A DNA stretch of 64,000 nt, taken from positions 1 to 64,000 of the forward strand of contig WSYC01000010.1 of the NCBI GenBank assembly GCA_009773635.1. Reading direction: 5' to 3'. Of the stretch, positions 22,987-37,533 are shown piece after piece. Numbering within the stretch: position 1 is the stretch's first letter; each line of letters opens with the position of its first letter. Under the pieces are notes generated by a model that searched no databases, had not been told where the DNA came from, and was given only the letters and a program-made list of their open reading frames with translations. Origin of the DNA: Beijerinckiaceae bacterium (GTDB lineage Bacteria > Pseudomonadota > Alphaproteobacteria > Rhizobiales > Beijerinckiaceae). A program made the translations under genes and the position numbers.

Positions 22987-23964
22987 TCACGGGGTCTTTT
23001 TCTGGATGCCGAGTGATTTGGCGACTTCACCGAGCGCGGTCAGCTCCGTGCGGATGAGCGCATCCGTTGCCTTGCCATCAAGCACGCGCAGCGTCGCGCC
23101 CTGCTTCGCCATCGCGGCCTTGAATTTCTCGGAGCCTGCCGCAGTGATGAAGGCTTTCTGCAACGTTTCGAAGACCGGTTCCGGCACGTCCTTGGGCACA
23201 ATCAGTCCCCACCAGAGGACGGTTTCGGCCTTGTCGAGCGCCAGTGCGGACAGGCCATCCGTCTCCGGCAGGGCAGGGTTCTTCGCCGCTGAGGTCAACA
23301 GCAGGCACTTGGCCTTGCCGGCCTGCGCATGCGGCAGGATGGGCGGCAGCGAGCCGCCGTAGAAATCAACGTGGCCGCCGAGGAAATTCTTGGCGGTCTC
23401 ACCGGCACCACCGAAGGGAATGCCGCGCACCTTGACGCCCGCGGACTGGAAAATGCGCTCCGCTGCAAGCTGCATCGTGCCGCCGATACCATCGTTGCCG
23501 TAGGTGTATTTGGCATCGGGTGCCTTGAGCTTGGCGATGAATTCCTGCGCGTCCTTCGCCGGGAAACCCGGTTGCGCGCAGAGCACATACGACGAGAAGC
23601 CGATCGACATCACCGCGCGGTAGGAATCCGGCGTGTAGGCGACGTTCAGGCTATGCGGGCTCGTGGTCAGCGGCGAGTTCCAGATGAAGCCGACCGTATA
23701 GCCATCCGGCTTCGCGGCAACGATCTGCGTCGTGCCGAGCGTGCCGCCAGCGCCGCTGCGGTTCTCGACAACGAATTTCTGCTTGAGGTCGCCTTCGACG
23801 ATTTCCGCGAGCACGCGGGCAAAGACATCGGTGCCGCCCCCTGTCGGTGCCGGGACGATCAGGCTCACCGGGCGAGCCGGATAGCTCTGGGCGAGGGCAA
23901 TGGACGAGATGGAGCAGGCCACAAGCGACGCGGCGATCAGGCGGAAATGACGAGCAACAGACAA
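22987..23964 (-). CDS. Tripartite tricarboxylate transporter binding protein (TctC/Bug family)
   Basis: This 325-residue secreted protein starts, I judge, at TTG 23964, because GGGAGGTCCG stands right before it and it gives a normal signal peptide (SVARHFRLIAASLVACSISSIALAQ). The open frame to 24018 would add a non-signal-like tail. The mature part shows the Bug pattern YPARPVSLIVPAPTGGGTDVFARVLAE and VVENRSGAGGTLGTTQIVAAKPDGYTVG. It captures a carboxylate for the two permeases downstream. Confidence 0.88.
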   Translation of the reverse strand: MSVARHFRLIAASLVACSISSIALAQSYPARPVSLIVPAPTGGGTDVFARVLAEIVEGDLKQKFVVENRSGAGGTLGTTQIVAAKPDGYTVGFIWNSPLTTSPHSLNVAYTPDSYRAVMSIGFSSYVLCAQPGFPAKDAQEFIAKLKAPDAKYTYGNDGIGGTMQLAAERIFQSAGVKVRGIPFGGAGETAKNFLGGHVDFYGGSLPPILPHAQAGKAKCLLLTSAAKNPALPETDGLSALALDKAETVLWWGLIVPKDVPEPVFETLQKAFITAAGSEKFKAAMAKQGATLRVLDGKATDALIRTELTALGEVAKSLGIQKKTP

Positions 23965-24105
23965 ACGGACCTCCCAGGAACGCCCCGGGAGCGCTTCTCG
24001 CTGCCAGGTGATAACCATTTCTCAAGCCTTTTCTTGCAAGGCGCAAGGCGGCGTTTACAAGTTGGTTACCATACTGGATGCCTGCCACGGGACAATGCGA
24101 CCGCC

Positions 24106-24936
24106 ATGCCTTTTATCGATACCCACGCGCATGTGTTCCTGCGGTCGCTGCCGATGGTGGCGAACCGCCGCTATACGCCGGGGTATGACGCCAGCCTTGC
24201 GAACTATATCCAGATGCTCACCGACAATGACGTTGGCTGCGGTGTGCTGATCCAGCCGTCGTTCCTGGGCACGGACAACACCTATCTCCTCGAATGCCTT
24301 GATCGTTACCCGAACGCGCTGCGCGGCGTTGTCGTCGTCGCTGCTGATGTGCCGGACGACGTGCTCACCGATATGAACCAGCGCGGCGTCGTCGGCATCC
24401 GCTTCAACATGATCGGCAAGGATATAGCCGAGATTGCCACGCCGGAGAATCAGGCGCTGCTCAGGCGCATCGCCGGTCTCGGCTGGCACGTCGAGGTGCA
24501 GGCGCGCGGTGCAGACCTGCCGGATGTCTTCCGTCATCTGGAAGGCTTCGACGGGCATATCGTCATCGATCATTTCGGGCTGCCCGATCCACGCCTCGGC
24601 TTGCGCGACCCCGGCTTCCGTCAATTGCTGCGGGAAGGCGAGACGGGGCGGACCTTCGTGAAGCTTTCGGCCGGCTATCGCTGCCATGGTCTTGATGTCG
24701 CGCCGCTCGCGGGGGCGCTTCTGGCCACCCTCGGGCCGCGCCGCCTGCTCTGGGGCAGCGACTGGCCATGGACGCAGTTCGAGAACGGGCGCAGCTACCC
24801 TGGCGTCGCGCGGGAGCTCTCCCGCTGGCTGCCCGATCTTCACGCCCTCGACCAGATTGACCAGACGGCGAGCGGATTGTTCCGGTTCTCGTTGCCGCTC
24901 CATCAGGCGTTGCACCGGCAGCGGCGCGTGGCCTGA
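24106..24936 (+). CDS. Amidohydrolase family 2 protein, pyrone-dicarboxylate lactonase-like
   Basis: The 276-residue TIM-barrel hydrolase opens with IDTHAHVFLRSLPM (metal His pair at residues 7 and 9), then GVLIQPSFLGTDN, HIVIDHFGLPDP, and ends the barrel with LLWGSDWPWTQFE (metal Asp). This order is that of 2-pyrone-4,6-dicarboxylate lactonase and related hydrolases. It faces away from the TctCBA-type operon, sharing a 141-bp divergent region, so it probably hydrolyses the carboxylate or lactone that the transporter imports. The open frame extends far upstream through the opposite gene; ATG 24106 matches the family start. Confidence 0.82.
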   Translation: MPFIDTHAHVFLRSLPMVANRRYTPGYDASLANYIQMLTDNDVGCGVLIQPSFLGTDNTYLLECLDRYPNALRGVVVVAADVPDDVLTDMNQRGVVGIRFNMIGKDIAEIATPENQALLRRIAGLGWHVEVQARGADLPDVFRHLEGFDGHIVIDHFGLPDPRLGLRDPGFRQLLREGETGRTFVKLSAGYRCHGLDVAPLAGALLATLGPRRLLWGSDWPWTQFENGRSYPGVARELSRWLPDLHALDQIDQTASGLFRFSLPLHQALHRQRRVA

Positions 24937-25278
24937 TTTTACCTATCCAAGGTAGCAGTTGAATCGCTGGTCCGTCGTTTTCCGACGTGATTTGCGCGTC
25001 TTGCGTGTTTCAGGGCTCGTTGACCAAAATATTGCCAGGCATCCTGATGGTGTTGATCTGTCTGCAATATCAACTGCCACAAATACAACTATAAATTGCA
25101 TTTCATTCAATTTTAGAGAATTCCTTTACCATATCACCGCCTGGTGCAAGCCATGGGTGCAATTTCAAACCTTCCTTAAGCCCTCAAGCATCATGACTGG
25201 CCTGCTGGTAAGCGGCGAAAGACCGTCCGGGTTCGAGAACGAGCCGCGGTTCAGCAGGGGTGATTGAAGGGGTCTGAA
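24937..25278. promoter_or_regulatory. Low-GC leader region before the ATP-grasp/sensor-MFS operon
   Basis: These 342 bp are clearly AT-richer than the genes around them, with an AT-rich run from about 25080 to 25140. An inverted repeat GTTGAT-N11-ATCAAC lies at 25052-25074. A 102-codon frame from a TTG at 24959 crosses most of the region, but it has no ribosome binding site and no recognisable content, so I do not call it a gene. The region most likely holds the operon promoter. Confidence 0.45.
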
Positions 25279-26481
25279 ATGTCGGCTGCTATGCTGCGGA
25301 AGAATCCGCAGGTGGAAGAGAAGAAGGTCTATCGACGGGCGGGGCGCATCCAGGAGCTGGAGCACCAGATCGAACGCATGTTTCTACGCCTGCGTCTTGC
25401 AGTGGTTTTCGGGGGCAACAAGAGCGCCGAAGGTGCTGTGATCGAGGCGACGGGCAACCCGCGCTCGTGGAAGAGCTATGAGACTGTCGCCCGCGATATC
25501 GCCGCCTCTATGGTGCGCGCCGGGTGCAAAGAGGTCAGCCTGATGCCCGATGACATGCGGCTCGGCGAATCTCTCCGGGAGCACGATGCCCATCTTGCCT
25601 GGCTGAAGACCGGCGGTGTCCAGGGTCATTGTTCGGTGGCGCATGCTCCGGCCATGATGGAACTTTTCGGCATCCCCTACATCGGCCACGACCCGATGAT
25701 GGCGGGTATTCTCGATTCCAAACACGTCTTCAAACGCCAGCTGCGCTCTGCCGGGCTGCCGACAGCGGCCTTCGCGATCGTGTTGCCGGAAGCAGGGCAT
25801 TATTGCCCGGAAGAAGATCCGGTCTTCATGAATGCTTTCGGCGAGGCCGAAGGTCCCTTCATCGTCAAGCCGGTTTCCGGCCGCGCGTCGCTCAATGTGA
25901 TGTATGTCGACAAGCGCGCGGACCTCGCGGCGGCTGTGGAAGATGTCTATGGCAAGACCCGCAATTTCGTGCTGATCGAGCAATACCTTTCCGGCGCGGA
26001 ATATTGCGTCGCCATCGGTGGCCCGGTGATCTCCCGTGGCGGCACGCTTGAACGCCTTGAAAAGCCCTTCATCTTCTCGCCGCTGGAGCGGGTGCTCGAC
26101 GCCGACGAGAAAATTTTCACCTCGATGGACGTGAAGCCGATTTCGGGCGAACGCGCCCGTCTTCTCGATCCGGTCAAGGATGCCCGGGTGCGGGGCGAGC
26201 TCGAAGCTCTGGCTCTCGCGGTCTGGCGCCAGCTCGGTATCGAAACGCTGGTCCGTCTCGATATCCGCGCAGATGCGCACGGTAGGCTCCACGTTCTGGA
26301 AGCCAATCCGAAACCCGATCTCAAGGCGCCTGCAAACGGCGTGACAAGCCTGGTTTCGATCGGGCTGAGCGAATTCGGCATGACTTACGACGATCTCATC
26401 CTGTCGATCTTCGCGGATCGTATGGACATGCTCTTGAGCGAACGGCGCGGGACCGCCGATCGTCTCATCCGTCTGATCTGA
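25279..26481 (+). CDS. D-Ala-D-Ala-ligase-like ATP-grasp enzyme
   Basis: This 400-residue protein has an N-terminal charged helix of about 40 residues, then RLAVVFGGNKSAEGAV, the HAPAMMELFGIPYIGHDPMMAGILDSKHVFKRQLRSAGLPTAAF block typical of D-alanine-D-alanine ligases, and the ATP-grasp core: GPFIVKPVSGRASLNVMYV, FVLIEQYLSGAEYCVAIGG and VRLDIRADAHGRLHVLEANPKPDL with the Mg-binding Glu and Asn. It should join an amino acid or carboxylate to an amine through an acyl-phosphate. It is about 90 residues longer than housekeeping Ddl and lies far from cell-wall genes. It heads an operon with a sensor-transporter, a binding protein and a c-di-GMP enzyme, so it may make or modify a signal molecule. 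The GAAGGGG sequence 10 bp upstream supports ATG 25279. Confidence 0.82.
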   Translation: MSAAMLRKNPQVEEKKVYRRAGRIQELEHQIERMFLRLRLAVVFGGNKSAEGAVIEATGNPRSWKSYETVARDIAASMVRAGCKEVSLMPDDMRLGESLREHDAHLAWLKTGGVQGHCSVAHAPAMMELFGIPYIGHDPMMAGILDSKHVFKRQLRSAGLPTAAFAIVLPEAGHYCPEEDPVFMNAFGEAEGPFIVKPVSGRASLNVMYVDKRADLAAAVEDVYGKTRNFVLIEQYLSGAEYCVAIGGPVISRGGTLERLEKPFIFSPLERVLDADEKIFTSMDVKPISGERARLLDPVKDARVRGELEALALAVWRQLGIETLVRLDIRADAHGRLHVLEANPKPDLKAPANGVTSLVSIGLSEFGMTYDDLILSIFADRMDMLLSERRGTADRLIRLI

Positions 26482-26509
26482 TCAGGCGGCAGGGAAACGG
26501 GGAACGACC

Positions 26510-28906
26510 ATGGAACTGAACCTGACAGCAGGACGGCGAATAGCAGATGCGATGGCGATGCTCGTCGTCGCGGCGGTATCGCTGTTCATTCTCGTCTACA
26601 TCGCGTTTGGCGAAGCTCGCCGGAATTACGAGCGGTTTCAGATCGAGAAGCTGGTGTCGCAAGGGCAGGTCGCGCAGAGCGTGATGGAGGCGTTCGTCAG
26701 ACCCGGTCTGCCGATGCATCAGTTCGTGGGCTTCGGCCCGTTGACCGACGCCATGGTGGATGGCGATTCGCTGCTGGACAATGTTGCCGCCTATGATGCG
26801 GTTGGCCAGCGTGTCTTCTCATCCACGAATGGCGGGTCGATCAATCTGCTACCAGCTGAACTCGGCCGGAAATCGGATGACGGCCTCGCGGAAGTGCGGG
26901 TCACATCCGAACTGCTTCAGGTTGTCCTGCCCGTCAAAAACCGCTTCGAAACCGTCGGCTCGGTCGTGCTCTCATCCCCGCGGGCGCTGATCGTCGCGAA
27001 GGTCGAGGAAGCCTTCAGGCCACTCTTTGGCATCGCCGGTATCGCGTCGTTCGTTTTTGCCCTTTACGTTGTGATGTTTGCCCAGAATGCCGCGCCGAGC
27101 CGCCGTGCGCGCATCGTCGCGATCGCTTTCGCGCTGAAATTCATCGTCATCTCAGCTTTCGTCGTTCACACGCTGCTGTCGGTTTATACGCAAGGCGCGC
27201 AGTCCCGCGCGAAAGCGATCGCGGATTCGCTGTCCCAGCGGCTCGATGATGTCGTGAATTACGGGCTGAGTTTTGACGAGTTCACCGGCATCATCGCGCT
27301 GACCGATGAATACAAGCGCCTCAACCCGGAGATTCGCGCTGCGGCCGTGATGATCGGCGACAAGATCCGCGCGCATTCCGCGCCGGTGCCGAAGGATAAC
27401 AAGTGGGTTTCGAACCCCAACGAGTTCGAATTCCAGGTGCCTCTCTCGAAATCCGATGCCGTTGTCCCGGTCAGCGTTGTCGTGGCGATGCCGAAGGATA
27501 TCGTTTACAAGCAGGTTCTGCGGAGCGGCAAGAATTTCGTCGCGCTCTTCGTCGCCTGCGCGTTCATCGCTGCACTGTTCATGGGCGTTGCCCGGTCGCT
27601 GCAGTACGTCAGTCAGGCGGCGCGCTCGGGCGAGGAGACCGATCCCGAGGAACGCGAGAAAGCGACCCTCAACCTCGTCAAGCCGGTGTTCTTCCTCGCC
27701 GTGTTCATCGAACATCTCAACTACGCATTCCTGCCGCAGCTCATGCATGACATCGCGGCGGCGTCGAACCTTTCGACGGGGTACGCCTCGCTGCCGTTCC
27801 TGGCCTATTACGCCTGCTTTGCGCTCTCGCTGGTCCCGGCCGGACGTCTTGATCGGACGGTGGGGTCGAGCCGGCTGATCATTGCCGGACTGCTGCTGGC
27901 GGGAACGGGCGTCTTCTTGCTCACGATGATGAGCAGCCTCCAGACGGCTGTTCTGGCCCGTGCATTGGCCGGCCTCGGGCAGGGCACGCTCTTCATCGGT
28001 GTCCAGGCCTATGTGCTGGCGAACTCCTCCGCCAGTCGCAAGACGCAGGCCGGCTCGGCCATCGTGTTCGGCTTCCAGGCCGGCATGATCGCGGGCATGG
28101 CGATTGGATCGTTGCTGGTGACCTATATCGATGCAGTCGGCGTGTTCCAGCTCGGAACCGGCCTCGCCTTCGTGACGATGGTCTATGCCAGCGCCGTGCT
28201 GCCGACGGTTCGGAAACGGGATGCCACCGTGGCAAAGCCGGGGGCAGCCTTCATGGATGTCTTCCGGATGCTCGGCAGCGGTCCTTTCCTGAAGAGCATG
28301 TTCCTGATCGGCGTGCCGGCAAAAGCGGTGCTGACCGGCGTGCTGCTGTTCGCGCTGCCGATGCTGCTGACGAAGCAGGGGTTCGCCCGCGAGGACATCG
28401 GCCAGTTCACCATGGTTTATGCCGGTGCGGTCATCATCGCCTCGACGCTGGTGGCGGGCTATGCGGACCGCTCGCGCCAGACCGAGCGCATCCTGGTGGC
28501 GGGCGGCGTTCTCACGGCCGTCGGTCTTGTGATCGTCAGCCTTGTCGGGCTCGACATGTTTTCGGGCAAGGATGTCCATCCGGCATGGATTACGGGGCTG
28601 ATCGTGATCGGTGTCTGCGTGATCGGCATGGCGCATGGCTTCATCAACGCGCCGGTTGTCACCCATGTTGCCGAGAGCCGCATCGCCGCCGAGCTTGGCG
28701 TGGCGAACGTTGCCTCGACCTATCGCCTGATCGAGCGCTTCGGCCACATGCTGGGTCCGGTGCTGATGGGGCAGGTGTTCGTGTATTTCGGTCCGTCCTG
28801 GGCCACCATCGGGTGGGTCGGCGCCGGTATTCTCTTCCTCACGATCCTGTTTCCCAGCGAAGCGGAACCGCAGGATACCTCTGACCAGAAGCCTGTGGTG
28901 GCCTGA
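26510..28906 (+). CDS. MFS transporter fused to two extracytoplasmic sensor-like domains
   Basis: This 798-residue membrane protein has an unusual layout. Helix 16-34 is followed by an extracytoplasmic domain (about 35-170) and helix 171-191; helix 203-224 is followed by a second extracytoplasmic domain (about 225-342) and helix 343-361. A 12-helix major facilitator unit then fills residues 390-785, with DRTVGSSRLIIAGLLLAGTGVFLL and YADRSRQTERILVAGGVL loops. The first part resembles the sensor half of a chemoreceptor or kinase, but no HAMP, kinase or GGDEF domain follows, so it appears that ligand sensing is coupled to transport. It lies 28 bp after the ATP-grasp gene and 1 bp before the binding-protein gene. 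Confidence 0.8.
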   Translation: MELNLTAGRRIADAMAMLVVAAVSLFILVYIAFGEARRNYERFQIEKLVSQGQVAQSVMEAFVRPGLPMHQFVGFGPLTDAMVDGDSLLDNVAAYDAVGQRVFSSTNGGSINLLPAELGRKSDDGLAEVRVTSELLQVVLPVKNRFETVGSVVLSSPRALIVAKVEEAFRPLFGIAGIASFVFALYVVMFAQNAAPSRRARIVAIAFALKFIVISAFVVHTLLSVYTQGAQSRAKAIADSLSQRLDDVVNYGLSFDEFTGIIALTDEYKRLNPEIRAAAVMIGDKIRAHSAPVPKDNKWVSNPNEFEFQVPLSKSDAVVPVSVVVAMPKDIVYKQVLRSGKNFVALFVACAFIAALFMGVARSLQYVSQAARSGEETDPEEREKATLNLVKPVFFLAVFIEHLNYAFLPQLMHDIAAASNLSTGYASLPFLAYYACFALSLVPAGRLDRTVGSSRLIIAGLLLAGTGVFLLTMMSSLQTAVLARALAGLGQGTLFIGVQAYVLANSSASRKTQAGSAIVFGFQAGMIAGMAIGSLLVTYIDAVGVFQLGTGLAFVTMVYASAVLPTVRKRDATVAKPGAAFMDVFRMLGSGPFLKSMFLIGVPAKAVLTGVLLFALPMLLTKQGFAREDIGQFTMVYAGAVIIASTLVAGYADRSRQTERILVAGGVLTAVGLVIVSLVGLDMFSGKDVHPAWITGLIVIGVCVIGMAHGFINAPVVTHVAESRIAAELGVANVASTYRLIERFGHMLGPVLMGQVFVYFGPSWATIGWVGAGILFLTILFPSEAEPQDTSDQKPVVA

Positions 28907-28907
28907 C

Positions 28908-30224
28908 ATGACCAAGATGTACCGTCGTTTTCTCCTTGCCTCGGTCTGCTCGCTCGGGTTTGGCCTTGCCGCCCCTGCCTTGGCGCAGGGACAGGCTGGC
29001 AAGGGTATCCCGCTCCGCGGTGCTATCCTCGCGCAGGTCGAGCCGGCAGCCCCGGCCGTCCTGCCGGTCTCGCCCACCCCGGGTGCGACCGAAAAGCTTC
29101 CCCCTGAAAAGGAGCCTTACTGGAGCTGGTTCAAATACAACCCCTCGGTCCTTTCGACCTGGACCATTTCCAGCACGCCGGGCAACCCGAATATCGTCAA
29201 GGCTGTCCCGACGCGGCTCGGCCTCGTGAGCCCGCAGAAGCGCGTCCTCGTGCTCTACCCGCGCGCTTCCTCCGCCTATGATGTGTCCATCACCAAGATT
29301 TTCTCCGTCTTCGAGGACAAGATTCTCGATGCCGAGGTGACGATCGCCAACTTCAAGCTCGACGACAGGGCCGGCATGGAGCAGATCCAGAAGGCAGAAG
29401 CCGAGGGTTACGACCTCATTCTGGCGATGGGGTCTGAATCGACGGCCTGGCTCTGGAGCAAATACAAGAACGGCAAGCTGCCGGTGGTGTCCGTCTGCTC
29501 GAAGGACCCGGTGGTTCTCGGCCAGTCGCCCGGTTACGATCTCGGCTCGGGCACCAATTTCGCCTTCACCTCGCTGAATATGCCGATGGATGTCCAGATG
29601 GCGTATGTGAACGAGCTGAAGCCCAGGCTCAGAAACATCGCGGTTCTCGTGGATTCGAAGAACCTCAGCGCGGTCGAGACCCAGTCAAAACCGGTAATCG
29701 AATACGCCAAGAAGCGTGGGATCCGCGTGCTTGAAATCGCGGTGGCCGATCCGGCGAATGCGCAGGCCGAGCTGGCAAAGCTCGTTCCGCAGGCCGCGGC
29801 GCAGATGCAGCGCAATGACCCGGATCTCAAGAACTCGCTGTTCTGGCTGACGGGCTCGACTTCGGTGTTCAAGGAGATCGACACCATCAACAAGTTCGCG
29901 GGGCCGGTGCCGGTCGTGGCTGTGGTGCCGGAAATCGTGCGGGACGGGGATTCCACGGCGGCGATGTCGATCGGCATCAGCTTTGAATCGAACGCGCATC
30001 TCGCGGCGATTTACTCGGTTGATATTCTCGCCGGGCGCGCCAGGGCGAGCGAACTCAAGGTCGGCGTCGTCTCGCCGCCGGATATCGCGATCAGCTTCCG
30101 CAAGGTGCGCGACATTGGCATGACCGTGCCGTTCTCGATGTTCGAGGCTGCCGGCACAATCTACGACTACGAGGGCAAGGCCGTCCGGGTCGACGGTGCC
30201 AACGTGACGAAGAAGATCAACTAA
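28908..30224 (+). CDS. TrpX-like ABC substrate-binding protein (PF04392 type) without a cognate permease
   Basis: This 438-residue secreted protein has a signal peptide ending near ALAQG (residue 27) and a Pro-rich linker. Its binding fold shows KRVLVLYPRASSAYDVSITKIFSVFED, YDLILAMGSESTAWLWSKYKNGKLPVVSVCSKDPVV, LRNIAVLVDSKNLSAVETQSKPVIEYAKKRGIRVLEIAV and a closing AISFRKVRDIGMTVPFSMFEAAGTIYDYEGK. The family normally works with ABC permeases, but none is encoded here. Its closest partner is the sensor-MFS protein 1 bp upstream, which suggests the binding protein presents a ligand to that protein's extracytoplasmic domains. Confidence 0.78.
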   Translation: MTKMYRRFLLASVCSLGFGLAAPALAQGQAGKGIPLRGAILAQVEPAAPAVLPVSPTPGATEKLPPEKEPYWSWFKYNPSVLSTWTISSTPGNPNIVKAVPTRLGLVSPQKRVLVLYPRASSAYDVSITKIFSVFEDKILDAEVTIANFKLDDRAGMEQIQKAEAEGYDLILAMGSESTAWLWSKYKNGKLPVVSVCSKDPVVLGQSPGYDLGSGTNFAFTSLNMPMDVQMAYVNELKPRLRNIAVLVDSKNLSAVETQSKPVIEYAKKRGIRVLEIAVADPANAQAELAKLVPQAAAQMQRNDPDLKNSLFWLTGSTSVFKEIDTINKFAGPVPVVAVVPEIVRDGDSTAAMSIGISFESNAHLAAIYSVDILAGRARASELKVGVVSPPDIAISFRKVRDIGMTVPFSMFEAAGTIYDYEGKAVRVDGANVTKKIN

Positions 30225-30275
30225 TTCAAGTGCACCCGGCCGGACAGAATGTCCGTGCCTATCGAGGTAGAAGAC

Positions 30276-33200
30276 ATGGCAAGAGCGGGCGCCAAGGTGA
30301 AACACCGGCCTGGATCGGGTGTCGCCGCGCGTCGCGTTGCGGCGGTGACTCCCAGTTTTTCCAAGGCCCAGTCACGCCTTCTGTCGCTGGCACTGGCCTC
30401 GAGCAGCCTTGACGTGGTCATCGACGAAGCGGCGCTGCTGGTGGAAACACTGGTTCCTGGAGCAGCCTGCATTATCGAGATCCTGCCCGGCGAACACGGT
30501 GACGGCTGCCGTTCGGCGCGCCTGGCCGCAGGGCCGCTGCATACGATGTTCGACTGTGGTGCTGTCCCGATGTCCCTGATCGGCGCGGCGCAAAGCGCGG
30601 GTGAGACCATCACGGTCGGCTCGTTCATGGCAGCCGGCGGCTGGGCTGGCCATGGCTTGCGCGCCGTTGCAGCAGGGTATCTCAGCGGCATCGCGACCCC
30701 GCTCCTTCAGGAGGGCGCGGAACAAGCCATCGGTGCGATGGCGCTCTATTTCCCGATCGAGAACGGAAGCACCGCCGAACTCGCCGCCAAGTTCGAAAGC
30801 TACGCCAGCGTGGTGGCGCAGCTGCCGCAGGTCATGCACGAGCGCCAGGCGAGCCGCACCTCGAACGAGCAGTTCGCCGGACTGGCCTCGACGATTCCCG
30901 GCGTTGTCTACCGCCGCATGGTGCGGCCGGACGGCACGATCCGCTATTCCTATATTTCCGAAGGCGCGAAGGATCTCTTCGGTGTCGACGCGAAGACCAT
31001 CGTCGAGGACCCCGAGGCGCTGTTCAATCACTACAGCGAGGAATACCGCGCCTCGTTCCGCCAGAAGCTGATCGAAGCGTCGAAGACGCTCTCGATCTGG
31101 GATGTCGAGGCCAAGATCGACCGCCCGGACGGCACGGTGCGCTACACGCATGCGATCGCCACGCCGAAGCGCTACGAGGATGGCTCCGTTGAGTGGACGG
31201 GGGTCATTCTTGACACGACCCGGATGAAGCTCGCCGAAATCGAGGCTGCTGAAACCGAACGCAAAACCCGCGAGGCGACGCGGCGCTTCTCCGAGCTGGC
31301 CTCGACCATTCCCGGTGTTGTCTATCAGCGCACCGTCTATCCCGATGGCGATGTGCGCTACATCTACATCAGCGAAGGCGCGAAAGAGCTGTTCGGTGTT
31401 GACGCCGAAACCATCATCCGCGACCCGCAGGCGCTGTTCAATCATTACAGCCCGGAGTATCGCGCGACCTTCCGCGAGAAGCTGATCGAGGCTTCGAAGA
31501 CGCTCTCGACATGGGATGTCGAGGCCCAGATCCTGCGCCCCGATGGCACGACGCGCTACACGCATGCCATCGCGCATCCCCGCCGCGAGGATGATGGCTC
31601 CGTCGTCTGGACCGGCGTTATCCTTGATGCCACCCGGATGAAGCTGGCGGAGCTGGAGGCGGCCGAGACCGAAACCAGAACCCGGCTCGCGATTGTCGAA
31701 AGCTTCACGCAAGGCCTGCTGCTTTACGGGCCGGACGGCAAACTCGTCGTTCGCAATTCCAAATTTCTCGACGTCAACCCCGGCCTCGATTCCATCGCGG
31801 TGCCCGGCGCAACCTATGTTGATGTGCTCAAGGCCGAGCTTGACCCCAAGCGGGAAGGGCAGATCACGGAAAGCGATGTCACATTCGAATTCTGCGAGCG
31901 CCTAGCGAAGCATAACAGGAAGCAAGGCTCGGTGTTCGAGCGTCAGATTTCCGACGATCGCTGGATATTGATCAACGACAATCCCACCAGCTCCGGCGGC
32001 AAGGTGGTGCTCTATACTGATGTCACTGAATTGAAGCGCCGCGAGCGCCATATCGAGCACATCGCGCATCACGATGCGTTGACCGGGTTGCCGAACCGTG
32101 TGCTGTTCCGCAAGCGGCTGGAGGAAGCCCTCGACAAGGCAGAAATCGAACAGCAGGACGTGGCCGTGATCTACATCGATCTCGACCGTTTCAAGGCCGT
32201 GAACGACACGCTTGGTCATCCGATCGGCGACGCGCTGCTCCAGTTCGTCGGCAAACGCATCCAGGAATGCATGCGTCCGACCGATGTGCCCGCCCGTCTT
32301 GGCGGCGACGAGTTCGCGCTCGTCATCCCCAAAAATGCGAATACCGAAACCCTGACGTCGCTCGCCTGGCGTCTGATCGACGTTCTCAGCCGCCCGTACG
32401 AAATTCAGGGGCATTCCGTCGTCATCGGGGCCAGCCTCGGCATCGCCATCGGGCGGGACGGTGCTCAATCGGCAGATACGATGCTCAAGAGTGCCGATCT
32501 CGCGGTCTACCGCGCGAAATCGGACGGCAAGGGCACGTTCCGCTTCTTCGAGGCGGAGATGGACGCGATCGCGCAGGAGCGACGCCTGCTCGAAATGGAT
32601 CTGCGTGCGGCGATCCGTACCGGACAGCTCATGGTTTACTATCAGCCGCAGGTGGATGTGTTCACGGCGCAGATGGTCGGCGCGGAGGCGCTGCTGCGCT
32701 GGCATCATCCGGTGCGCGGCAATGTTCCGCCCAGCGAGTTCATCCCGCTGGCAGAGGAAACCGGGCTCATCAGCGAGATCGGACCCTGGGTGTTGCGCAA
32801 GGCGTGCGAGGATGCCGTCAACTGGCCGCTCGCGGCCCGCGTGGCGGTCAATTGCTCGCCGGCCCAGTTCCAGAACGGCAGCTTCATCGAAGTCGTGCGG
32901 CAGGTGCTGCAGGATACCGGGCTGAAGCCCTCGCGCCTCGAGATCGAGATCACGGAATCCCTGTTGCTGCGCAACACGGATGCGAACCTCAAGACACTCT
33001 GGGGTCTCAAGGAGCTCGGTGTCCGCGTTTCGATGGACGATTTCGGCACCGGGTATTCCTCGCTCGGCAACCTGCGCTCGTTCCCCTTTGACAAGATCAA
33101 GATCGATCGCTCGTTCATCAACGATCTCAAGAACAGCGTCGACGCCGCAGCGATTATCCGCGCGGTGGTGTCGCTCGGCCGAAGCCTCGGCATCACCACG

Positions 33201-33356
33201 ACGGCGGAAGGGGTCGAGACGCGCGATCAGCTGACGTATCTGAGGGCGGAAGGCTGCTCGGAAGTGCAGGGGTTCTACTACAGCGAAGCCCAGCCATCCG
33301 ACACCATCCATCAGATGCTGATCAACTCGCCGAACGGGGTGATCCAGCCGCGATAG
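30276..33356 (+). CDS. PAS-PAS-PAS-like-GGDEF-EAL cyclic-di-GMP enzyme
   Basis: This 1026-residue cytoplasmic signalling protein starts at ATG 30276, preceded by GAGGTAGAAGAC; ATG 30249 lacks such a site. An N-terminal GAF-like region (about 25-195) is followed by two nearly identical PAS domains (about 199-336 and 337-474), a third PAS-like segment, a GGDEF domain with intact GGDEF at 676-680, and an EAL domain with E804-A-L, then DDFGTGYSSLGNL and KIDRSFI. Both catalytic motifs look complete, so it could make and degrade c-di-GMP. It ends the ATP-grasp/sensor-MFS/binding-protein operon and is followed by a strong terminator. Confidence 0.9.
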   Translation: MARAGAKVKHRPGSGVAARRVAAVTPSFSKAQSRLLSLALASSSLDVVIDEAALLVETLVPGAACIIEILPGEHGDGCRSARLAAGPLHTMFDCGAVPMSLIGAAQSAGETITVGSFMAAGGWAGHGLRAVAAGYLSGIATPLLQEGAEQAIGAMALYFPIENGSTAELAAKFESYASVVAQLPQVMHERQASRTSNEQFAGLASTIPGVVYRRMVRPDGTIRYSYISEGAKDLFGVDAKTIVEDPEALFNHYSEEYRASFRQKLIEASKTLSIWDVEAKIDRPDGTVRYTHAIATPKRYEDGSVEWTGVILDTTRMKLAEIEAAETERKTREATRRFSELASTIPGVVYQRTVYPDGDVRYIYISEGAKELFGVDAETIIRDPQALFNHYSPEYRATFREKLIEASKTLSTWDVEAQILRPDGTTRYTHAIAHPRREDDGSVVWTGVILDATRMKLAELEAAETETRTRLAIVESFTQGLLLYGPDGKLVVRNSKFLDVNPGLDSIAVPGATYVDVLKAELDPKREGQITESDVTFEFCERLAKHNRKQGSVFERQISDDRWILINDNPTSSGGKVVLYTDVTELKRRERHIEHIAHHDALTGLPNRVLFRKRLEEALDKAEIEQQDVAVIYIDLDRFKAVNDTLGHPIGDALLQFVGKRIQECMRPTDVPARLGGDEFALVIPKNANTETLTSLAWRLIDVLSRPYEIQGHSVVIGASLGIAIGRDGAQSADTMLKSADLAVYRAKSDGKGTFRFFEAEMDAIAQERRLLEMDLRAAIRTGQLMVYYQPQVDVFTAQMVGAEALLRWHHPVRGNVPPSEFIPLAEETGLISEIGPWVLRKACEDAVNWPLAARVAVNCSPAQFQNGSFIEVVRQVLQDTGLKPSRLEIEITESLLLRNTDANLKTLWGLKELGVRVSMDDFGTGYSSLGNLRSFPFDKIKIDRSFINDLKNSVDAAAIIRAVVSLGRSLGITTTAEGVETRDQLTYLRAEGCSEVQGFYYSEAQPSDTIHQMLINSPNGVIQPR
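30870..31697 (+). repeat. Tandem in-gene duplication of a PAS-domain segment (414-bp period)
   Basis: Two successive segments, about 30870-31283 and 31284-31697, encode closely similar PAS domains: LASTIPGVVYRRMVRPDG against LASTIPGVVYQRTVYPDG, and KLIEASKTLSIWDVEAKI against KLIEASKTLSTWDVEAQI. The offset between matching bases is 414 bp, exactly 138 codons, so the frame is kept. Confidence 0.85.
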
Positions 33357-33434
33357 AGCATGGGCGCAAACGCGGCCACCGGTTTTGCATCAACACCACG
33401 CGGCTTGCTCTGGAGCCTGTTTCCCAAACAAAGA

Positions 33435-33474
33435 ACCCCCGGATGCGCGAGGAGCGACGATCCGGGGGTCTTTT
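33435..33474 (+). terminator. Intrinsic terminator of the GGDEF-EAL operon
   Basis: ACCCCCGGAT (33435-33444) pairs with ATCCGGGGGT (33460-33469) across a 15-base loop and is followed by CTTTT. It lies about 80 bp after the stop. The remaining 175 bp up to the convergent flgH stop hold nothing recognisable. Confidence 0.8.
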
Positions 33475-33649: not shown

Positions 33650-34432
33650 TTAGAACGGCAGGATGATATCGAGGACCTGCTGGCCGTAGCGGCCCTGCTG
33701 GACATCGGTGATCTGGCCGCGGCCGCCGTAAGCGATGCGCTGCTGGGCGATCTTGGTCGAGTCGATCTGGTTGCCGGCCTCGATATCCTCCGGCCGGACC
33801 ACACCGGCGACAATCAGCTCGCGCACCTCGAAATTGACGCGCACTTCCTGCTTGCCCTCGATCACGAGGTTGCCGTTCGGCAGTACCTGCGTCACGACGG
33901 CGGCGATATCCGTCGTCAGCTGTTCGGCGCGCTTGACCGAACCGGCGCCCTTGGTCGTGGAGCCTGAGGTCGCATCGACCAGCGCTTCCGGGTTCGTGCC
34001 CTTGGCGAAGATCTTGCCGACGCGGTTTTCCTGGCCGAAGAACCCTTTCATGCCGAGGTTCTCGGAGTTGGCGCGGGTCCGTTCGGTTTCGTTGTCGATA
34101 TTGGCCTTGTCGGTGATACGGACGCGGACCGTCAGAAGATCGCCGACCTGCTGGGCGCGCTGATCCTTGAAGAAGGCACGGCTGCCGGTGCGCCAGAGCG
34201 AATTGGCCTGATAGCTCATCGGCTTGGGAGCCGGCATCGGCATCTGGACCGGCTTGTAGCCGGGCTGGGCGGTCGGGTTCTCGATCGCCGAGAGGTCCGG
34301 TGCCTTGCCAACATTGGCGAGCCGATCGAGCGAGCCGCAGGCGCTGAGCCCGAAGCCGGCGGCAGCAAGCAGGCCGAACCGGAAGGAAGCGCGGGCGATC
34401 ATCAGCGCCGGGCGAGGTGAAAAGCGTGACAT
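33650..34432 (-). CDS. flgH: Flagellar L-ring protein FlgH
   Basis: This 260-residue outer-membrane lipoprotein has a signal peptide ending in the lipobox LSAC (Cys32). The typical FlgH pattern follows: NSLWRTGSRAFFKDQRAQQVGDLLTVRVRITDKANIDNET and a C-terminal GRGQITDVQQGRYGQQVLDIILPF. It forms the ring that carries the flagellar rod through the outer membrane. It is last in the minus-strand block flgF-flgG-flgA-flgH, separated from flgA by a dispersed repeat. Confidence 0.93.
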   Translation of the reverse strand: MSRFSPRPALMIARASFRFGLLAAAGFGLSACGSLDRLANVGKAPDLSAIENPTAQPGYKPVQMPMPAPKPMSYQANSLWRTGSRAFFKDQRAQQVGDLLTVRVRITDKANIDNETERTRANSENLGMKGFFGQENRVGKIFAKGTNPEALVDATSGSTTKGAGSVKRAEQLTTDIAAVVTQVLPNGNLVIEGKQEVRVNFEVRELIVAGVVRPEDIEAGNQIDSTKIAQQRIAYGGRGQITDVQQGRYGQQVLDIILPF

Positions 34433-34458
34433 GGCGGATATCCTTCTGGTGCAACGAG

Positions 34459-34535
34459 AGCATTTTCGCTAGCGCGGACCCTCGGTTCAAGCGAAGTGGG
34501 TGCCGGTTCGCGTCAAGAAAATGCGACAAAACAAG
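34459..34535. repeat. Dispersed intergenic palindromic repeat, copy 2 (with internal insertion)
   Basis: AGCATTTTCG (34459-34468) is separated by about 21 extra bases (ctagcgcggaccctcggttca) from the rest of the element, AGCGAAGTGGGTGCCGGTTC and on to GAAAATGCGACAAAACAAGA. The right part is nearly identical to copy 1. It lies between flgA and flgH, so it would be inside their shared transcript. Confidence 0.72.
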
Positions 34536-34540
34536 ACGTG

Positions 34541-35533
34541 TCAGCGACGCGGGGGCGTCGTCGCGTCGGCGAGCGTGGCGGCAGGGGCGGGGGCTGCGAA
34601 GATCGTGATCTGGGCCGGGCCCGTGACCATGCCTTCGACGAACCGCTTCGATTGCGGGTTCTGGATACGGATGGTTTCGCCCATCGCGCCATTGGCCTGA
34701 GCACGGCCGCGCATGGTCAGCGAGAGGCCTTTCGAGGCGTAGACGACCGAGACGAGCTGGTTCTTCTCGACCAGGATCGGCTTGGCGATATCGGTCTGCC
34801 GCACCGGCTCGCCGGACTTGAGCACGCGGCGCGGGATCATTCCGATGAGATCGTTCATCGCGGTCACGACGTCGGTGCCCACGGTATTGGCCGGGCGCTT
34901 GATGATCGTGAGATCCTTTGCCTGAAGCGCGTCGCCGCGTTCAAGATCCGAAACAGGCACCACGACGTCGCGGGTTTCCACGATGGAGCCGGTCAGCGTC
35001 CAGGTCTCGCCGGTCGTCGCACCGGCCAGAGCCACCTTGACCTCGAAGCGGCCGCTGGCGGTATCCCGGGCAAGGTTTGTCACCTTCAGGGCGTCGGTGC
35101 GGGCGATGTCGACGGTGCGGGCGGCGTGATGATCGTCGAGGATGACGTCGAGATCGCCTTTGGCGCCGCGCTCGGCAAATGCCCGGCCGATAAGGGCCTG
35201 CAAGTCGTTGCGGCTGATGGTGCGGCCGGGGCGGGTGATCGAAATGACCTTGAGGCCATCGGCATCAATCCCGTCGATGCCCATCTCTCGGGCAGCGGAA
35301 ATGACCCGGTCTGCCCGGATCGTACCGCGCGCACCGGGGGCCGGAGCCCGGAAGACCGCGATGTCCGCGCCCTTTTCGAGCCCCTCGATCAGATGACCGA
35401 GACGGACGGTATCCCCGTCAATCACGGCTTCGGCCCGAAGACGGAGCTGGTCCGCCAGCGCAGGGCTGAGAGCGAGGCCGGCGATGAGGCCGGCGCCGAT
35501 GAGAGAGTGAAAAAGTCGGGAGCGGATCTTCAT
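34541..35533 (-). CDS. flgA: Flagellar P-ring assembly chaperone FlgA
   Basis: This 330-residue periplasmic protein has a signal peptide (LFHSLIGAGLIAGLALSPALA) and the C-terminal SAF-type domain of FlgA: VVVPVSDLERGDALQAKDLTIIKRP, IGMIPRRVLKSGEPVRQTDI, NQLVSVVYASKGLSLTMRGRAQANGAMGETIRIQNPQSKRFVEGMVTGP. It helps FlgI assemble the P ring. ATG 35533 has TGAGGA about 10 bp upstream; TTG 35548 overlaps the flgG stop region and is less likely. The N-terminal half is longer than in enteric FlgA, as in other alphaproteobacteria. Confidence 0.91.
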   Translation of the reverse strand: MKIRSRLFHSLIGAGLIAGLALSPALADQLRLRAEAVIDGDTVRLGHLIEGLEKGADIAVFRAPAPGARGTIRADRVISAAREMGIDGIDADGLKVISITRPGRTISRNDLQALIGRAFAERGAKGDLDVILDDHHAARTVDIARTDALKVTNLARDTASGRFEVKVALAGATTGETWTLTGSIVETRDVVVPVSDLERGDALQAKDLTIIKRPANTVGTDVVTAMNDLIGMIPRRVLKSGEPVRQTDIAKPILVEKNQLVSVVYASKGLSLTMRGRAQANGAMGETIRIQNPQSKRFVEGMVTGPAQITIFAAPAPAATLADATTPPRR

Positions 35534-35548
35534 GATCAATGTCCTCAA

Positions 35549-36340
35549 TCAGCCGCGGAACATGCTCGCGGTGGCGGTCAGCATCTGATCGGCACCGGAA
35601 ATGATCTTGGAATTCAGCTCGTAGGCGCGCTGGGCCTGGATCATCGAGGCGATCTCGGTCACGGCGTTGACGTTGGAATCCTCGAGGTAGGCCTGGAGCA
35701 TGTTGCCGAAGCCTTCGGAATTCGCGGTGCCGTCGATCGCCGGGCCGGAGCCGGGCGTTTCGAGATAGAGGTTGTCGCCCATCGATTCGAGGCCGACCTT
35801 GTTGATGAAGCGCGTCAGCGTGATCTGGCCGAGCGCCTGCGGTGTCGTGGCACCGGGGATCTGGGCGGTGACCTGGCCGTCCTGCGCGATCGCGACGCTG
35901 GTGGCGTTCTGCGGGATGGTGATGCCGGGATCGAGCAGGTAGCCTTCCTTGGTCGTGATGCGGCCCTGCGAGTCGGTTTCGAAGCCGCCATCACGCGAGT
36001 AGGCCGAGCGGCCATCCGGCAGCTGGATCTTGAAGAAGCCTTCGCCGCGGATGGCGATGTCATAGGTGCGCTCGGTCGGGCTGACGTTGCCGGACGTCAT
36101 GATGCGCGGCGTTGCGACAACCTTGGCGCCCGAGCCGATGAAGACGCCGGCAGGCACCTGGGTGTTCTGGTCCGAGGTGGGTGAGCCGGCACGACGCTGG
36201 TGCTCGTAGAGCAGGTCCTGGAAATGGATCGTCTGCCGCTTGAAGCCGGTCGTGCGCATGTTGGCGACGTTGTTGGCGATGACTTCGACGTTCTTTTCCT
36301 GGGCCATCATGCCGGTTGCGGCGGTGTAAAGGGCGCGCAT
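35549..36340 (-). CDS. flgG: Flagellar distal rod protein FlgG
   Basis: This 263-residue axial protein has the rod/hook N-terminal motif ALYTAATGMMAQEKNVEVIANNVANMRTTGFKRQ and C-terminal NVNAVTEIASMIQAQRAYELNSKIISGADQMLTATASMFRG, both forming the coiled-coil core of the filament. GFFKIQLPDGRSAYSRDGGF in the middle is characteristic of FlgG. It builds the distal rod after FlgF. Confidence 0.95.
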   Translation of the reverse strand: MRALYTAATGMMAQEKNVEVIANNVANMRTTGFKRQTIHFQDLLYEHQRRAGSPTSDQNTQVPAGVFIGSGAKVVATPRIMTSGNVSPTERTYDIAIRGEGFFKIQLPDGRSAYSRDGGFETDSQGRITTKEGYLLDPGITIPQNATSVAIAQDGQVTAQIPGATTPQALGQITLTRFINKVGLESMGDNLYLETPGSGPAIDGTANSEGFGNMLQAYLEDSNVNAVTEIASMIQAQRAYELNSKIISGADQMLTATASMFRG

Positions 36341-37197: not shown

Positions 37198-37533
37198 GGA
37201 ACGGCCCTCCCTCTCCTCGTTTGATGGCCCGCCTTCCTCGCTCCCCAGCGCGAAAACTTGCCGATGCATTAACCATAACAAGTGCCGTGCCAGATCGGGA
37301 GTTGAGTAAAATGCGTTCCAAAACAGCAGGATATCAAAAATGCCTTGCTGCGATCTTGGAGGACGGAAGTGCCACCCGGCAAAAACGGACAGGCAAAATT
37401 TGCCGCATCCGCCAAAAATGAAAGTCTTCGTTAACCATGCACGCCCCAAGGTCAGCTCAAGAAGGACGCATACCGATTCACGCCGGCATGCGCTCCGGGA
37501 TGCAACAGCGTTGAAACCGGATGGACAGGGACC
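37198..37533. promoter_or_regulatory. Divergent flagellar promoter region between flgF and fliL
   Basis: The region carries two TTAACCAT elements (37269-37276 and 37431-37438), the form of CtrA half-site common in rhizobia. The first is preceded seven bases earlier by TTGC, a poor first half. It also has the inverted repeat GGCAAA-A-TTTGCC (37392-37404), preceded by ACCCGGCAAAAACGGAC, a phrase echoed upstream of fliX. No gene is seen here. The two outward operons (flgF and fliL) must both start in this region. Confidence 0.5.

Follow-up and report, generated by a model that had tools for sequence, protein, structure and literature searches.

The stretch of DNA analysed here, referred to as the window, comprises 64,000 nucleotides of contig WSYC01000010.1 from a Beijerinckiaceae bacterium (assembly GCA_009773635.1). 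Four open reading frames lie on its + strand (25279-26481, 26510-28906, 28908-30224 and 30276-33356), separated by gaps of 28, 1 and 51 bp across the unit 25279-33356, as described in an initial annotation of the sequence. They encode an ATP-grasp ligase resembling Ddl (D-alanine-D-alanine ligase), an MFS transporter with an additional N-terminal module (sensor-MFS), a binding protein of the ABC_sub_bind family and an enzyme with PAS, GGDEF and EAL domains. The conserved core is a three-gene cassette of ligase, sensor-MFS and orphan ABC_sub_bind protein, and in the gene that follows it an input PAS domain has been retained while the output domains were repeatedly exchanged. The features of the unit are as follows.

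25279..26481, + strand: Ddl-like ATP-grasp ligase, 400 amino acids, core gene 1 (Pfam Dala_Dala_lig_C, 54.6 bits; AlphaFold2 pLDDT 90.5; ATP/Mg residues kept)
26510..28906, + strand: sensor-MFS, 798 amino acids, core gene 2 (MFS_1 at residues 395-733; four extra spans and two large loops ahead of it)
26510..27658, + strand: N-terminal module of the sensor-MFS, twice the unit span, periplasmic loop, span (from hydropathy; free-standing in L128, where it has 375 amino acids, and in L213)
27692..28708, + strand: MFS transporter domain (PF07690, 97.8 bits)
28908..30224, + strand: orphan ABC_sub_bind protein, 438 amino acids, predicted periplasmic, core gene 3 (PF04392, 46.2 bits; N-terminal hydrophobic stretch at residues 8-26)
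30276..33356, + strand: PAS-PAS-PAS_7-GGDEF-EAL enzyme, 1026 amino acids, exchangeable output gene (Pfam; GGDEF and EAL motifs intact)
30870..31241, + strand: cassette-type PAS copy 1 (77% identity to copy 2)
31281..31655, + strand: cassette-type PAS copy 2, the query of the PAS searches
32064..32531, + strand: GGDEF domain (PF00990, 159.9 bits)
32598..33287, + strand: EAL domain (PF00563, 244.6 bits)

Sixty-one related genomes, including that of the window, were searched, and MFS matches of < 35% identity were dropped from the counts. A full-length sensor-MFS was found in 10 of them, and all 10 share the gene order ligase, MFS, binding protein and fourth gene, the last being complete or partial (a contig end cuts it in G007, G016 and G017). 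The proposal that the genes form one unit is borne out by this conservation, with the refinement that what is conserved is a cassette of three genes plus an exchangeable output rather than a fixed set of four. In a sample of 385 genomes from the class, 10 had a match to the ligase (E ≤ 1e-30) and nine to the sensor-MFS (E ≤ 2.1e-136), all nine falling within the 10 (Fisher 2e-17). In a further 16 genomes of the class the MFS was matched only more weakly (E 4e-77 to 7e-21), and the ligase was not matched.

Scanning named genomes with the ligase alignment gave 133 relatives, the best 80 of which were kept; nine of these loci are the same places as in the 61-genome search. The sensor-MFS is in the locus for 52 of the best 80 ligase loci, 49 of which have the binding protein as well, and in the remaining three (L063, L064 and L068) the contig stops within the MFS gene. 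Homologues of the trio are thus clearly found together in other genomes, and the initial annotation had named co-localisation of its four genes as a point on which its proposal turned. The arrangement differs in two of the 49, with the MFS and binding protein on the opposite strand in L075 and the binding protein upstream in L122. Of 49 loci, 44 have a gap of -60 to 150 bp between ligase and MFS (median 25), and that between MFS and binding protein falls in the same range in 35 of 50 (median -4), overlaps being rough as start codons were picked by script. Judged by record titles, most carriers are Alphaproteobacteria, from several orders. Two loci (L090 and L115) are labelled as Chloroflexi-type metagenome-assembled genomes, although the label of L090 appears doubtful because its PAS is nearly identical to that of alphaproteobacterial L085. 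When neighbouring genes were clustered, with single neighbours left unannotated, no family beyond signalling genes and antisense frames was present in more than six cassette loci. The cassette is widespread in bacteria and apparently undescribed.

The genome encodes a separate, true Ddl on contig C30 (273 bits, over cut-off), and the idea that the window ligase is the genome's own Ddl is rejected; the initial annotation, which had set this gene apart from cell-wall genes, is supported on that point. The ligase falls under the cut-offs of all 25 NCBIfam models listed, scoring 77.4 bits (cut-off 243) and 69 bits (cut-off 245.65) against the two best Ddl subfamily models. A sequence search of the PDB gave Ddl or Van ligases as its relatives and, as a weak last match, the L-amino acid ligase BL00235; its family has an NPKPD motif of its own. 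The AlphaFold2 model is confident (pTM 0.89). Positions K148, K197, E234, E241, D328, E341 and N343, equated with ATP/Mg ligands by alignment with Ddl, are kept in 50 to 51 of 51 aligned homologues. R326 and S357, which we take to be in the acceptor site, are kept in 50 and 45 of the 51, respectively; the roles of the ATP/Mg and acceptor positions are presumed to be those of their E. coli DdlB counterparts. From conservation of both sets of residues, the protein is predicted to be an active amide ligase with an amino-acid acceptor.

There is no MFS in 28 of the 80 ligase loci, which by title belong to cyanobacteria (27) and Crenothrix. In 24 of these 28, an EamA-type gene lies directly upstream of the ligase on the same strand (Pfam checked on L077). 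The presence of two unrelated transporter families beside the same ligase suggests that its product or substrate is transported. One genome (G183) has two divergent ligase copies (L136 and L137, 41-42% identity), and the contig of L136 carries genes that by eye are TerD-like.

The MFS domain of the second protein is preceded by four extra spans (residues 15-33, 172-190, 202-220 and 343-361, by hydropathy), with N-terminal loops of 138 and 122 amino acids, one for each unit of span-loop-span. Neither Pfam nor PDB searches gave a convincing relative of this module. The description of the transporter as sensor-fused therefore holds in outline, that is for the spans and the loops, but no known sensor domain is recognised there. 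In L214, a distant cousin, the MFS domain is preceded by matches to HAMP (41.7 bits) and to sCache_3_2 (24.3 bits, cut-off 28.4). The module was matched in 18 of the 385 class genomes, nine of them cassette genomes, and of the two free-standing copies that in L213 adjoins a SpoIIE phosphatase and a binding protein. In L128 (2581-8226) the module copy is followed by a short gene that by eye is anti-sigma-kinase-like, and a binding protein, a SpoIIE phosphatase and a TauD-family gene are divergent from it. By eye, motifs of the sensor-MFS resemble what we take to be antiporter motifs.

The binding protein is the sole PF04392 match in the genome. It scores 32.2 bits against the TrpX model NF041285 (cut-off 390) and its structural relatives, 3lft and 6hni, are distant, so the label TrpX-like is acceptable only loosely and fails as an assignment to TrpX. 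Among the four genes there is neither an ABC permease nor an ATPase, as the initial annotation had remarked for the permease, the rest of the genome not having been searched for a distant one. A TrpX-type binding protein with an ABC partner in the operon is rejected on both counts. Since the c-di-GMP (cyclic di-GMP) enzyme is probably cytoplasmic, the binding protein more likely contacts the sensor-MFS.

In Pfam the fourth protein matches PAS_3 (two stretches) and PAS_7 as well as GGDEF and EAL. Both signature motifs are intact, with RxxD ahead of GGDEF (read by eye in the translation), and, with the motifs given the roles that we presume for them, its domains indicate a putative bifunctional c-di-GMP enzyme. 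It is probably cytoplasmic, as its one hydrophobic stretch (residues 52-70) is in the N-terminal part, where relative L065 has GAF ahead of PAS; a single span is possible. Outputs were tallied by hand for the 52 MFS-bearing cassettes. There are 13 with PAS-GGDEF-EAL (one of which, L049, ends in GGDEF at a contig end), 16 with PAS-histidine kinase, seven with Cache-cyclase in the locus, two with GGDEF-EAL lacking the cassette PAS, two cut by the contig before the output (L047 and L051) and 12 in which none was seen. The assignments to kinase, cyclase and response regulator were confirmed by Pfam on representatives. Because output domains swap, the view that GGDEF-EAL belongs invariably to the system is rejected.

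The PAS domain is the best-conserved piece of the cassette. Cassette PAS domains are 56 to 88% identical to that of the window, whereas the best off-cassette PAS reaches 40%. In the 61-genome set the PAS was found at 66 to 87% in eight of the nine other cassette genomes, a kinase version being among them at 70%, and in the ninth (G016) the contig ends at the PAS position; the best PAS in the 51 non-cassette genomes of the set shows 37% (Fisher 6e-10, window genome counted). In a tree of 51 PAS domains, the 35 that belong to the cassette (29 taken from cassette loci, five from other contigs, and copy 2 of the window) form one clade with support of 100/99. PAS matches covering ≤ 90 query residues, L047 among them, were left out of the counts, and L051 was omitted from the tree. 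Within the clade 14 GGDEF-EAL, 13 type-2 kinase and eight type-1 kinase proteins interleave. Six label changes are needed in all, the minimum possible for four labels being three, and supported branches, taken singly, force at least two for GGDEF-EAL, at least two for type 2 and at least three for type 1. It is clear from this interleaving that the input domain stayed while the output was exchanged. The two cassette PAS of the window protein are a tandem duplicate (about 73% identity in DNA), and a second copy was not met in other cassette proteins of the 61-genome PAS search.

The alternative cyclase has a Cache sensor of its own, matched at E < 1e-55 in five of nine cassette genomes, three of which have it on a contig other than that of the cassette, versus none of the 376 others (Fisher 2e-9 at that line, chosen once the list of matches was known). 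In G125 (L138) a kinase-like match takes the place of the cyclase after this sensor, a further instance of an exchanged output. The idea that PAS outputs and the Cache-cyclase exclude one another (0/7 co-occurrence) was considered and dropped owing to Desertibaculum (L065, taken to be G152), in which a PAS-kinase lies beside the cassette and a Cache sensor match on another contig. Of the signalling circuit proposed initially, the signalling role is retained on the strength of the cassette-specific PAS and the swapping of outputs, while the c-di-GMP enzyme proves to be only one of several outputs.

The ligase (43-44% identity) and the MFS (30-32%) also occur on six Vibrio plasmids. On the three examined (L241, L242 and L243) the trio is part of a type VI secretion system (T6SS) cluster, where it is placed between tssH and the gene for FHA; its third gene is an annotated ABC substrate-binding protein. 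Profile tests of one plasmid placed all three proteins in their families and found the same N-terminal module in the MFS. A second annotated substrate-binding-domain gene accompanies the trio within the T6SS clusters of L241, L242 and L243.

Twenty-one cousin loci were examined, chosen because the MFS or the module was matched in them. ABC_sub_bind is matched in 15, namely L214 by Pfam and 14 others by profile (E < 1e-3, with some weak matches), and SpoIIE phosphatases or cyclases are present in some of the loci. In two related genomes (L214 and L219) a cousin sensor-MFS, which in L214 is a Cache-HAMP-MFS protein, is in one gene run with an ATP-grasp_4 ligase. In another genome of the class (L129) a GCS2 ligase lies about 3 bp from the sensor-MFS. 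The combination of sensor-MFS, binding protein and ligase is thus met again with ligases of other families, and T6SS genes are seen in two cases. The run at L129 (2447-15925) comprises SpoIIE, ABC_sub_bind, GCS2 ligase and sensor-MFS, beside FHA, VgrG-like and ClpB/TssH-like genes.

The analysis shows gene content, gene order, conservation, PAS specificity, the fusion of PAS to output domains and repeated output exchange. The reading preferred here, to which we give a probability of about 0.5, is that of a small-molecule sensing cassette with a plug-in output, in which an amino-acid derivative made or consumed by the ligase is moved by the MFS and read via binding protein, sensor and PAS. The Ddl-like enzyme would join an amino acid to another small molecule, as its family and conserved acceptor residues indicate, and the MFS protein would move the compound, most likely outward. 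The periplasmic ABC_sub_bind protein would capture it and hand it over either to the two periplasmic loops ahead of the MFS domain or to the transporter proper. On the cytoplasmic side, the PAS domains of the fourth protein may respond to the compound or to the state that the sensor-MFS is in, and GGDEF-EAL would then set c-di-GMP here, as kinase activity would be set in relatives. The EamA family is best known for export, and export by the MFS appears favoured over import because of the EamA pairing and the antiporter-like motifs. The gene content would fit a circuit of quorum-sensing type, with synthase, export and reception of the same molecule. We suggest only tentatively that such sets form a new class of signalling, between cells or for self-monitoring, defined by an amide-signal ligase, an exporting-and-sensing MFS with a two-loop module, a free binding protein and interchangeable outputs. 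With equal reserve, its outputs may be listed as c-di-GMP enzyme, histidine kinase, adenylate/guanylate-type cyclase, SpoIIE (in distant cousins) and the T6SS cluster (on Vibrio plasmids).

Several observations weigh against the sensing cassette. Its chemistry, transport direction and signal flow are all drawn from gene co-occurrence. The cassette is present in only six of the 16 other genomes of the genus group and is therefore not essential. In G017, G054 and G060 the MFS is less conserved (37-39% identity) than the binding protein (48-55%), the ligase (57-58%) and the PAS (66-70%), which might not be expected of a tightly ligand-specific transporter. No output gene was seen in the locus for 12 of 52 cassettes and, of 11 such genomes searched, six have no cassette PAS anywhere; the other five have one on another contig (56-64% identity), and those PAS genes that are near contig ends may be true neighbours of the cassette. 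Nor is the PAS universal, being absent from all seven genomes with a Cache-cyclase neighbour and from both with plain GGDEF-EAL output. The Cache sensor has weaker matches in eight non-cassette genomes (E 9e-52 to 3e-22) and is missing at E ≤ 1e-20 from four of nine cassette genomes, including that of the window. G183 has two ligase copies and no MFS match, both copies being < 400 bp from a contig end with the downstream region unseen. Finally, the ligase profile was matched in only three of the 21 cousin loci, and weakly, with GCS2 in one more, Pfam having been run on some of the neighbours.

A possible, if doubtful, alternative is that the unit serves uptake and assimilation: the binding protein and the MFS would import the derivative, the ligase would use or detoxify it, the signalling gene would report the nutrient, and nothing would be exported. 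ABC_sub_bind proteins take their name from uptake systems, PMC9602780 describes receptors that are stimulated by binding proteins, and in many loci the MFS gene touches or overlaps the binding-protein gene. However, no family beyond the signalling genes and antisense frames recurs among neighbours of the cassette at the threshold given above, and the transporter paired with the ligase where there is no MFS is of EamA type in 24 of 28 loci.

It is unlikely that the unit is concerned with chemistry of the cell envelope or matrix, with the ligase making a peptide-like decoration, the MFS moving a precursor and c-di-GMP controlling the process. The ligase is Ddl-like, c-di-GMP often controls matrix, and a C-terminal stretch of the L122 binding protein by eye resembles a peptidoglycan-binding repeat. 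Yet polymer-making families were not noticed among the recurring neighbour clusters, in a survey that was not exhaustive, and the outputs switch to kinases and cyclases while the trio persists. More unlikely still is self-protection, in which the ligase would modify a harmful amino-acid analogue, the MFS expel it and the signalling gene tune a stress response. The pairing of ligase and MFS exporter recalls what we take to be the arrangement of bacilysin-type BacD/BacE, and the T6SS clusters of the three Vibrio plasmids examined are a competition setting, but efflux needs neither a dedicated binding protein nor a conserved PAS. That the genes are chance neighbours of unrelated function, for which only the patchy distribution speaks, can be dismissed: it is already refuted for the three-gene core by co-occurrence in the 61 and 385 genomes (Fisher 2e-17 in the class, and 6e-10 for the PAS in relatives, related genomes not being independent draws) and by recurrence of the trio in other orders and on Vibrio plasmids.

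If the sensing reading is true, the second protein would represent a new class of transporter-receptor, an MFS with its own periplasmic sensor, and one input would serve many signalling outputs. Because a likely maker of the ligand sits in the same operon, the cassette is a ready system for asking what the conserved PAS and the orphan binding protein sense. Since the trio is also carried in T6SS clusters of plasmids, this input might have a part in competition among cells as well.

Two further features flank the unit.

25125..25179, + strand: upstream element, TTTACCA ... TTCNTTAA / CTTCCTTAA, kept in an alignment of five close genomes
33430..33473, no strand assigned: intrinsic terminator hairpin, bidirectional (-27.5 kcal/mol, z -3.66), with convergent flgH on its other side

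The upstream element has a single match in the window and a single match in the genome, and is a possible regulatory region before the ligase gene. A scan for sigma-70-like promoters gave zero matches on the + strand ahead of the operon. The hairpin confirms the strong terminator that had been placed after the unit; it is absent from the + strand list of a consensus scan, presumably because its loop exceeds the length allowed. Directly past it (33650-36340) are convergent flagellar genes, named by eye as FlgH, FlgA-like and FlgG. Among the loci searched, this flagellar neighbourhood is confined to the nearest genomes (FlgH in L044-L046 and in copies L032, L033 and L035). Co-regulation with flagellar genes was considered, as the motif AANNCTTCNTTAA precedes the operon and is found again at 37422, ahead of a gene on the + strand that by eye resembles fliL, and was rejected, the motif being hardly enriched genome-wide (6 versus 4 for a control). 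Sequences of the form TTAACCAT are found in the flagellar region at about 37270 and 37431, with no enrichment shown. Upstream of the unit (22987-24936) lie genes that by eye encode a TctC-like binding protein and an amidohydrolase-like protein. The latter gene stops 342 bp ahead of the ligase; its relatives (cluster c14) are in six loci in all, preceding the ligase in L044, L045 and L047, and it is excluded from the unit.

Like Ddl and the L-amino acid ligases, the window ligase has the ATP-grasp region and the ATP/Mg residues, and its PDB relatives are Ddl or Van; it differs from Ddl in its low scores (69-77 bits against cut-offs of 243-246), in the NPKPD motif and in coexisting with a separate Ddl in the genome. 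Similarity of the binding protein to TrpX is confined to the weak model match (32.2 against 390 bits) and the distant relatives 3lft and 6hni, and the ABC permease and ATPase are absent among the four genes. BacD/BacE, which we take to be an amino-acid ligase beside an MFS exporter, resembles part of the cassette, but in the cassette the MFS is extended by a sensor module, with a binding protein and signalling genes in addition. UhpC is presumably an MFS-type sensor, with the MFS fold used near signalling; in contrast, the cassette protein has two extra periplasmic loops of no recognised family and is accompanied by no UhpA/UhpB-like pair.

Receptors stimulated by solute-binding proteins include, according to PMC9602780, diguanylate cyclases and phosphodiesterases. 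The cassette resembles them in linking a periplasmic binding protein to control of c-di-GMP, and differs in that its GGDEF-EAL protein is probably cytoplasmic and the membrane partner is an MFS. The three Vibrio plasmid T6SS clusters examined hold the cassette, and type i5 is stated for V. europaeus and its relatives in PMC12824646, passages of which deal with core T6SS genes and the main text of which does not contain the words 'ligase' or 'MFS'. PMC4822843 sets out the classes of output found with Cache proteins and mentions neither MFS nor a transporter. As the initial annotation had supposed, no description of the trio of ligase, sensor-MFS and binding protein turned up in the open-access literature (titles and starts of abstracts, with subscription papers and preprints mostly outside). 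Except for the sensor module, the families are known; what appears to be new is their combination, in which signalling outputs are joined to a ligase, an orphan binding protein and an MFS that bears a sensor.

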